Origin: Siphonodentalium dalli
Lineage: Eukaryota; Mollusca; Scaphopoda; Gadilida; Siphonodentaliidae
DNA length: 64,000 bases
NCBI GenBank assembly: GCA_032622095.1
Contig: CP136066.1
Location: forward strand, 56,944,609-57,008,608
Direction: 5' to 3'
How positions within the stretch are numbered: position 1 is the stretch's first letter; each line of letters starts with the position of its first letter. The translations under genes and the position numbers were made by a program. Under the pieces are notes generated by a model. The model worked only from the letters and a program-made list of their open reading frames with translations, ran no database searches and was not told the DNA's origin. Shown piece by piece: positions 50,216-51,529 of this stretch.

Positions 50216-50279
50216 CAATAGACACTTCTCTGATCGAGAGGTCTTGATCCCTTGGTCACGGTCGTTAGACGCTTTGTGT

Positions 50280-50352
50280 GATCACTGAAGTTAAGCAACG
50301 TCGAGCCCGGTTAGCACTTGGATGTGTGACCGGCTTTGGATTCCGGGTGCTG
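50280..50352 (+). promoter_or_regulatory. 5S rRNA-like internal promoter region, left LTR
   Basis: Corresponds to about nucleotides 42-114 of 5S rRNA, including box A (GAAGTTAAGCAACGTCG) and box C (ACTTGGATG...ACCGGC). Compared with the right copy it has changes in box C (GTGTGACC for GGGCGACC, GCTTTGGATT for GCTTGGGATT), so it may be weaker. The first 40 bases of 5S rRNA are absent, so it is not a 5S gene. Confidence 0.75.
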
Positions 50353-50414
50353 CCAACTTTCGATGCGACTCCCGCACCTCTCTCTCTCTCTCTCTCTCTC
50401 TCGTTCTGTTACAC

Positions 50415-50428
50415 TGGGGGCTCGCCCG
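50415..50428 (+). promoter_or_regulatory. Primer binding site candidate, tRNA-Pro type
   Basis: TGGGGGCTCGCCCG begins one base after the LTR end. It is complementary to the 3' end of animal tRNA-Pro (ending CGAGCCCCCA) with one mismatch in 14; the match stops after that. The position is right for a reverse-transcription primer site. Confidence 0.6.
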
Positions 50429-50593
50429 TTCCACGGAGTCTGTGTCATGATGCGACCGCTCTTGGGTTGGACTCGGGTGAGATTCAAAAAGAACGGGGGA
50501 GTAGTGTAGCGGTCGCGCTGTAAATTAAAGAAGGTCGATGACTTCTCCGATCGAGAGGTCTAGATCTCTTGGTCACGGTCGTTAGACGCTTTT

Positions 50594-50666
50594 GATCACC
50601 GAAGTTAAGCAACGTCGAGCCCGGTTAGCACTTGGATGGGCGACCGGCTTGGGATTCCGGGTGATG
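50594..50666 (+). promoter_or_regulatory. 5S rRNA-like internal promoter region, right LTR
   Basis: GATCACCGAAGTTAAGCAAC, then CGGTTAGCACTTGGATGGGC and GACCGGCTTGGGATTCCGGG. Box A, the intermediate element and box C are all recognisable and closer to genuine 5S rRNA than in the left copy. It could recruit TFIIIA/TFIIIC and RNA polymerase III. Confidence 0.8.
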
Positions 50667-51107
50667 TCAATTAACTTTCGGTGCTACTCCAGCACTTCTC
50701 TCTCTCTCTATTATCTCTCTCCTCTCTCCTCTCTCTCTCGCTCGTCTCTCTCAGTTCTCTCTCTATCTCTCTCTCTCTCTCCTATCTCCTCTCTCTCTCT
50801 CTCGCTCGTCTCTCTCAGTTCTCTCTCTCTCTCTCCCTCCCCCTCTCTCTCTCTCTCTCTCTCTCGTTCTGTTACATATGAAACGATGATCTAACAAAAA
50901 CTGACAAACTTCACAAAGATCAACGATTGATTATTGTAGATATATTACAGGAAAAAGGTCGCCTGTGAACGATATACAATAATTGTATCACGGCATTTCT
51001 CGCTCACACAAATATTAGCCAATCGTAAGTTGAGAGGTTAATCACTTATTAGAGCTATCCAATTGCTATCCAAATCGCTAACATGATATGCACGTGCCTG
51101 TGCAAAG

Positions 51108-51529
51108 TTAGAGTACGTTCATACGCTGGCAAATTTGCACAGTATGGTTTGCAGGCATTTTGTCGTAGAAAACGATATGGTGCCATAATATAAACGGAAG
51201 CAAGCATATAAGATGCATATGTACCACAGCTAACTACCTGCGAAGTAAAATATATGTAGTTCCACTTGTAGCGATGCTACCGGAATTTGCCTGTAAAAAG
51301 CATGCAATTATCTCGCAAGAATAAATCATACAGGTGTTTGAAGGCAAATTACAGTATATCACCGTTACAAGTGGAACTACATAAATTTTACTTCTCATGT
51401 CGTTTGCTTTGGTAAAGATGCATGTTATGTGCATGTTTCCGTTCATATTCTGGCACCATGTGATTTCCTATGACGAAATGCCCACAAAAACATACTGTGC
51501 AAACTTTCCAGCGTATGAACGTACCCTAA
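51108..51529. mobile_element. Foldback/MITE with ~190-bp terminal inverted repeats
   Basis: The ends read TTAGAGTACGTTCATACGCT and, inverted, TTAGGGTACGTTCATACGCT. Matching continues through GG-AAA/GTTTGCACAGTATG, ATGGTGCCA-AATAT-AACGG and GAAGTAAAAT-TATGTAGTTC, to AGTTCCACTTGTA near the middle. The arms differ by roughly 20 percent. Flanking bases TTA (left) and TAA (right) do not settle the superfamily. Non-coding. Confidence 0.82.

Follow-up and report, generated by a model that had tools for sequence, protein, structure and literature searches.

Structure of the element

The DNA that we analysed (the window) is a stretch of 64,000 nucleotides of contig CP136066.1 from the scaphopod Siphonodentalium dalli. 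At 50221-50876, it contains a decayed copy of a TRIM (terminal-repeat retrotransposon in miniature) that belongs to a multi-copy family (Table 1). Two direct repeats (families D2 and D3, 92-94% identical, at spacings of 314 and 317) each contain a 5S-like block with box A and box C and each end in GTTACA. The initial annotation had described these features, and blastn against a host 5S gene confirms the blocks. It had also placed a tRNA-Pro primer site one base past the first repeat, with 13 of 14 positions matching, and we find the same when comparing the site to the mature host tRNA-Pro; across the full 18-nt host site, the window copy matches at 13 positions. On the other hand, the interior had been given as 125 bp. 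As judged by the genome copies, the second LTR begins with TGTAGCG at 50505, so the interior is 91 bp, and the left edge of the second repeat had been placed about 36 bp too late.

Table 1. Features of the TRIM copy in the window
Feature	Position	Strand	Description
LTR1	50224..50413	+	5'-truncated by ~35 bp; homologous to genome-copy LTRs from position ~36 on; GTTACA end at 50408-50413
5S rRNA-derived block, LTR1	50280..50352	+	host 5S nt 41-113 (box A, IE, box C); blastn to host 5S gene L029, 89%, E 1.4e-25
CT tract, LTR1	50378..50402	+	TRF, 12.5 copies of CT
tRNA-Pro primer-binding site	50415..50428	+	one base (C, 50414) past LTR1; 13/14 to reverse complement of the 3' end of host mature tRNA-Pro
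Non-coding interior, 91 bp	50414..50504	+	lies between GTTACA and TGTAGCG, like the interiors of genome copies
Polypurine tract AAAAAGAACGGGGGAG	50486..50501	+	from the sequence; ends three bases (TAG) upstream of LTR2
LTR2, 5' end complete, 372 bp	50505..50876	+	TGTAGCG...GTTACA; final GTTACA at 50871-50876
5S rRNA-derived block, LTR2	50594..50667	+	host 5S nt 41-114; blastn 90.5%, E 6.4e-27; Rfam 5S 30.4 bits (gathering score 38)
Expanded CT tract, LTR2	50696..50866	+	TRF

Relative to the genome copies, LTR1 lacks its first ~35 bp, which agrees with the eroded start that had been noticed before. Because this end is gone, no target duplication can be read at the window copy. The CT tracts of the two LTRs do differ in length, as was also noticed, and LTR2 is longer than the usual ~210-214 bp because its CT tract has expanded. 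Long CT tracts are present in three other copies as well (L002, L026, and L028). The polypurine tract of the window copy is also found in the genome copies listed and in part of the further loci. When positions 1-196 of LTR2 were folded, the z score was -1.86, and 11 of 200 shuffles did equally well, which is not informative.

We also note an inverted repeat at 51148-51488 of the window, with 132-nt arms that are 81% complementary and 77 nt between them. It looks like a MITE or a foldback element.

Copies in the genome

We searched the 2.23-Gb genome (nine contigs). With the window copy as the query, there were at least 56 matches (40 of 2,696 first-look candidates were scored). The first 55 bp of the LTR have 50 exact matches genome-wide, and the junction of LTR end and primer site occurs 298 times with up to two mismatches, a count that includes tandem-array units as well as one gypsy-like locus. 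The reversed control gave 0 matches in both cases. We examined 60 further stretches. Of these, 20 came from the window-copy search, and the other 40 contain the 43 remaining exact matches to the 55 bp.

Among the copies listed, the LTR is ~212 bp (about 210-214) and runs from TGTAGCGGTCGCG to GTTACA (TGTAGC...GTTACA); the interior is ~100 bp and the element is ~525 bp. These are the features of a TRIM: a short pair of LTRs encloses a short non-coding interior, a primer-binding site and a polypurine tract lie at the ends of that interior, the target duplication is of constant length, and there are solo LTRs. Two loci (L014 and L019) contain tandem arrays of the form LTR-interior-LTR-interior-LTR. 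Over the first ~190 bp, the LTRs of a pair diverge by a median of 5.1% at 30 window-family loci, and by 1.0-6.2% at four loci of the sister families that are described below.

Target duplications and solo LTRs

To score target duplications, we used 80 loci: 68 from the window family and 12 that were found with primer-site and box-A patterns (three of these, L036, L041, and L042, turned out to be window-type). We dropped 4 loci without a 5S anchor (L048, L052, L062, and L075), 18 without usable outer ends, and 9 same-flank duplicates, which left 49 usable insertions with different flanks. An identical 4-bp duplication was present at 34 of the 49, and a 5-bp duplication at none. When left and right flanks of unrelated loci were paired as a control, 4-bp agreement was seen in 66 of 2,352 pairings (2.8%). 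In the window family, the duplication was found for 12 of 15 solo LTRs and for 18 of 27 insertions with two or more LTRs. In the sister family, it was found for 4 of 7, and the single sister solo LTR lacks it. The 15 insertions without an exact duplication include some with doubtful outer ends (L008 and L013, which we scored as misses). The right flanks of L016 and L024 were set by hand.

The genome search that was proposed in the initial annotation therefore found multiple copies, solo LTRs, precise ends, and target duplications, but these are 4 bp instead of the anticipated 5 bp. Similarly, the remark that a 5-bp duplication is absent holds at the window copy, where none is readable, while the duplication of the family is 4 bp.

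Two loci share their flanks: to the left, 396 of 400 bases agree, as do 58 of the first 60 to the right. One of them is a solo LTR (L081) while the other has two LTRs (L082), so the loss of the interior by recombination between LTRs is seen directly.

A tRNA-Pro primer

The host tRNA-Pro genes, identified as such by ARAGORN, were found as part of a tandem array. In 67 distinct contexts across the fetched loci, the 18 nt that come one base after the LTR end match the host tRNA-Pro (with CCA) at 10 or more positions, a threshold that was our choice. In 61 of the 67, the match is at 13-18 of the 18 positions. L035 and L039, which are other loci, account for two of the 67.

One array preserves what appears to be a copied primer. 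In L042 (G000:C3 near 234362617-234362996), a piece of 38 nt separates an LTR end from a second LTR end with its primer-binding site. All but one of these nucleotides (37/38) agree with the reverse complement of the mature host tRNA-Pro, starting at the complement of CCA, and the second unit of the array contains a decayed piece of tRNA-Pro (31/38). The three host tRNA-Pro genes listed do not encode the CCA. Since the match begins at the CCA complement and the genes lack it, the piece was most likely copied from the tRNA itself, which gives evidence of primer use without an experiment. Other non-gene pieces of tRNA-Pro with CCA do exist in the genome (L039/L093 and L094), so this evidence is strong rather than absolute, and the piece might have had a genomic source.

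At L039 (G000:C2:216065126), the 3' half of tRNA-Pro forms a palindrome, antisense and then sense, with CCA in both; this may be another retro-copied primer. The 3' half of tRNA-Pro has 265 exact matches genome-wide. At least G000:C3:244762459-245637861 (L095-L097) is a large tandem array of tRNA-Pro with tRNA-Gly, with a period of ~1,413 bp.

The 5S-derived block

Our reference for the host 5S is a gene that was found with the Rfam 5S model at 118 bits (L029). In five LTRs tested, the block is 87-94.5% identical to it. The block lacks nt 1-40 of 5S, so it cannot give a whole 5S RNA. For nine LTRs, the Rfam 5S scores reported were 21.5-34 bits, below the cut-off of 38, as compared to 104-118 bits for the 47 host matches listed; L040 and LTR1 of the window had no Rfam 5S match at the thresholds used. 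Given the missing nucleotides and these scores, we rejected the idea that the block is a functional 5S gene. The 3' end of box C is also altered (GACCGGCTTGGG in the element and GACCGCCTGGGA in the host).

The host has two types of 5S sequence, which were seen across L033 and L034 (G000:C2 near 200.2 Mb and 177.9 Mb) and L029-L032 (C6 and C9). The first type forms tandem units of ~194 bp and mostly reads TACCTGG...GAATCTCGGG. Units of the second type are single within 3-kb loci and read TACTTGG...GAATACCGGG. Among 99 LTR rows of the window family, there are subfamilies of 29 and 20 that look like the host types TACTTGG and TACCTGG.

Sister families with tRNA-like boxes

We found related LTRs by using patterns, first the full primer site (14 matches) and then a motif that precedes the 5S block (111 exact matches, of which 10 were fetched as loci). 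These sister loci (L037, L038, L040, L083, L085, L087, L089, L090, and L092) share with the window family the head and the tail of the LTR, the style of the interior, and the positions of the primer-binding site and the polypurine tract; the stretch before the 5S block is different. In the sister LTRs, this stretch includes TTTGGTCCAGTGGTTAAGACGCC, which matches tRNA box A at 11 of 11 positions, and downstream of the 5S block is GGTGCGATTCC or GGTGCGACTCC, which matches tRNA box B at 10 of 11 positions. (For scoring, we used what we take to be the box A and box B motifs.) Single boxes of this quality arise in 4-8% of dinucleotide shuffles, and the joint score is reached by 0.47% (L040) or 0.33% (L090) of 3,000 shuffles. 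In L005, from the window family, the best box A does no better than chance (52% of shuffles) and box B matches at 10 of 11 positions (4.4% of shuffles).

The stretches before the 5S block in L005 and L040 are nevertheless homologous, as their alignment score is above that of all 2,000 shuffles (one LTR was used per family). We had considered a reversed 5' end of 5S as the origin of this stretch in the window family, and dropped it because the alignment is with the sister family's tRNA-like part. In a tree of 111 LTRs, which is unrooted and whose bootstrap had not settled, a 100/100 branch separates the window LTRs from the sister LTRs. Neither cmscan, run on four sister loci up to E = 10, nor ARAGORN, run on eight, reported a tRNA, so a tRNA origin of the stretch before the 5S block is likely but not proven.

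The boxes of the sister LTRs, and the window family's lack of box A, suggest a switch in the type of Pol III promoter within one lineage. It is close to an even bet that the ancestor of the window family was a Helenus-type (tRNA-headed) TRIM which acquired 5S sequence within its tRNA stretch, with the sister families (L040, L085, L090, and others) as intermediates that have both types of promoter. Besides the joint box scores of two sister LTRs, the shared parts of the LTR and interior, the homology of L005 and L040, and the split in the tree, this origin would fit with animal Helenus, which is described as having 4-bp duplications and, in some families from bivalves, using tRNA-Pro (Kojima 2024, PMC10886601). 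Against it stand the absence of a tRNA match and the chance-level box A in L005. Also, two patterns for a 5S-free tRNA-type relative had 0 matches each genome-wide, and a tree without a root does not set the direction of change.

Going further into the steps, we tentatively propose, at somewhat longer odds, that the 5S promoter entered an LTR with a tRNA-type promoter and came to lie between the two boxes of that LTR; the probable route would be a template switch while the element was reverse-transcribed. The sisters would have kept the double promoter, while the window family would have dropped box A and amplified on 5S alone. This would be an independent capture whose intermediate is still present. 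The initial annotation had raised a separate capture of 5S in an invertebrate, which is plausible, and candidate sister forms are now at hand. These families provide a natural series for studying the gain of a promoter and the loss of an older one.

Transcription and mobilization

We propose that the family is a non-autonomous TRIM of ~525 bp with the internal promoter portion of a host 5S gene in its LTRs, and that it is transcribed by Pol III and mobilized by gypsy-type proteins (a probability of roughly 85%). The captured piece of 5S is probably the promoter of the element. We infer Pol III transcription from the retained boxes and from two features of a set of 30 elements. First, runs of four or more T's are rare: there are 9, as compared to 72 expected from mononucleotide shuffles, and 23 of the 30 elements have none. 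These loci include a same-flank duplicate (L009) and three with doubtful ends (L013, L016, and L067), and the T-poor copies are related, so they are not 30 independent tests. Second, neither AATAAA nor ATTAAA occurs in these elements. The window copy itself contains one TTTT (at 50590) and one ATTAAA, which fits a decayed copy, and we count it as no support for Pol III.

Alternatively, the piece of 5S might have been acquired by chance, in a TRIM that is transcribed by Pol II or is no longer transcribed at all. There is a TATA-like TAAATATAG at LTR positions 17-25, and the low Rfam scores, or lack of a reported match, could be expected of a passenger. Also, conservation of the 5S boxes within the window family does not clearly exceed that of the head or the tail of the LTR, although sampling copies by a 55-mer also favors conservation of the head. 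But across the two diverged families, box A, IE, and the nucleotides up to 79 are identical: in a comparison of 111 LTRs (after removing 9 from duplicate loci), the majority letters agree in all 30 columns for 5S nt 50-79, whereas 25 of 56 columns just upstream of the 5S differ. The head and the part past the 5S are nearly as constant, however, with differences at only 1 of 36 and 0 of 24 columns, respectively. The lack of AATAAA and ATTAAA in the 30 elements, if not in the window copy, also argues against Pol II, and Cassandra and Ajax retain the same part of 5S (for Ajax, PMC10886601). Overall, we consider a passenger 5S to be unlikely.

If the element is transcribed by Pol III from its 5S promoter, then TFIIIA/TFIIIC-type factors most likely bind box A, IE, and box C in the 5' LTR. 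Pol III would start ~50 nt upstream of box A, within the 5' LTR, and would read through the element to give an RNA of the form R-U5-PBS-interior-PPT-U3-R. With no T4 terminator, the transcript would pass the 3' LTR and stop in the flanking DNA, and the R repeat for strand transfer would be kept. The layout (the primer-binding site, the polypurine tract, and the LTRs) calls for reverse transcription with tRNA-Pro, a plus-strand start at the polypurine tract, and a borrowed integrase. The RNA would be packaged by the proteins of an autonomous Ty3/gypsy-type element, the cDNA would be primed by tRNA-Pro with its plus strand starting from the polypurine tract, and integration would produce the 4-bp duplication. 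Recombination between LTRs would then yield solo LTRs and short tandem arrays.

The 4-bp duplication fits an animal partner of gypsy type, as animal Helenus elements are described as having 4-bp duplications and gypsy-like primer regions (Kojima, PMC10886601). L035 (G000:C1:24851024) is a candidate for the autonomous partner, but not a proven one. It is a gypsy-like locus with the full tRNA-Pro primer site in common, an LTR end of CCTGTTACA, and an ORF of 210 amino acids that looks gag-like by eye. It is at low copy: its LTR-end region has 10 matches genome-wide.

Relation to known elements

The initial annotation held that 5S-bearing TRIMs were known only from plants, which is outdated: this is not the first one from an animal, as Ajax was reported in 2024 from two nemerteans (Kojima 2024, PMC10886601). 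As described there, Ajax is a TRIM with 5S box A, IE, and box C in its LTRs, a primer-binding site, a polypurine tract, and no working 5S RNA, as in our family. It is 421-434 bp, has 5-bp duplications, and uses a tRNA-Leu primer, whereas our family is ~525 bp, has 4-bp duplications, uses tRNA-Pro, and has a tRNA-like box A in its sister. That our family simply is Ajax would account for the shared part of 5S (box A, IE, and box C only) and the similar class of length, and Ajax LTRs outnumber its interiors, which would match our solo LTRs (PMC10886601). Given the differences in duplication and primer, which we compared by description, we think that this is quite improbable. In our sample, 5S box A, IE, and box C are present, the 5-bp duplication is found at 0 of 49 insertions, and the primer site is for tRNA-Pro instead of tRNA-Leu.

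SINE3 elements are mobilized by LINE-type machinery and have no LTRs, no primer-binding site, and variable duplications. A tandem 5S-derived SINE of this kind, which the initial annotation named as the contrary outcome, would explain the 5S block and the arrays at L014 and L019, but we dismiss it because of the fixed TGTAGC...GTTACA ends, the solo units with 4-bp duplications, the consistently placed primer site and polypurine tract, the copied tRNA-Pro in L042, and the solo and two-LTR forms at identical flanks.

Cassandra, from plants, was reportedly described in 2008. Its primer site is TGGTATCAGAGC and its duplications are 5 bp. Our family shares with it a 5S promoter block in the LTR of a non-autonomous LTR element, and has a tRNA-Pro site instead of TGGTATCAGAGC, a duplication of 4 bp, and an animal host (there are 41 Wnt exon matches in the genome). 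Thus, of the initial label of Cassandra-like TRIM, the miniature LTR element with a 5S block in an animal stands, and membership in Cassandra does not. The Wnt matches point to an animal but to no phylum; a mollusc haemocyanin domain had 0 matches, and its controls had none either. Cassandra is also described as having its 5S promoter in the middle of the LTR within a TRIM layout (PMC10853983, PMC7215508) and as forming short tandem arrays (PMC7215508), as seen here; TGGTATCAGAGC was the string used to find it (PMC7215508).

Our literature search, which did not reach Repbase or most subscription papers, found no publication that describes this family. If its origin is separate, then the same part of 5S was captured by LTR elements at least three times (in plants, in nemerteans, and here), which would argue that short LTR elements benefit, in a repeatable way, from having a 5S promoter.

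Helenus, as described by Kojima (2024, PMC10886601), resembles our family in that its LTR promoter derives from a small RNA gene, its animal members have 4-bp duplications (as we found), some bivalve families use tRNA-Pro, and there are tandem arrays in LTR-11_DR. It differs in that the captured sequence is from a tRNA, while here it is from 5S, either without box A (the window family) or flanked by box-A-like and box-B-like motifs (the sister). biv-TRIM (PMC6934838) is another animal TRIM of comparable size, with repeats of 202-218 bp, an interior of 77-80 bp, and solo and tandem forms. Its polypurine tract is GGGGAGA, it has no unambiguous primer-binding site, and the part of its description available to us does not mention a 5S block. 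By their descriptions, the length of the duplication and the primer set our family apart from Cassandra and Ajax, so membership in either fails on the features tested. Maiwald et al. propose that every non-autonomous LTR element with a 5S block be placed in a Cassandra lineage; this is a definition by likeness, and our family would satisfy it.
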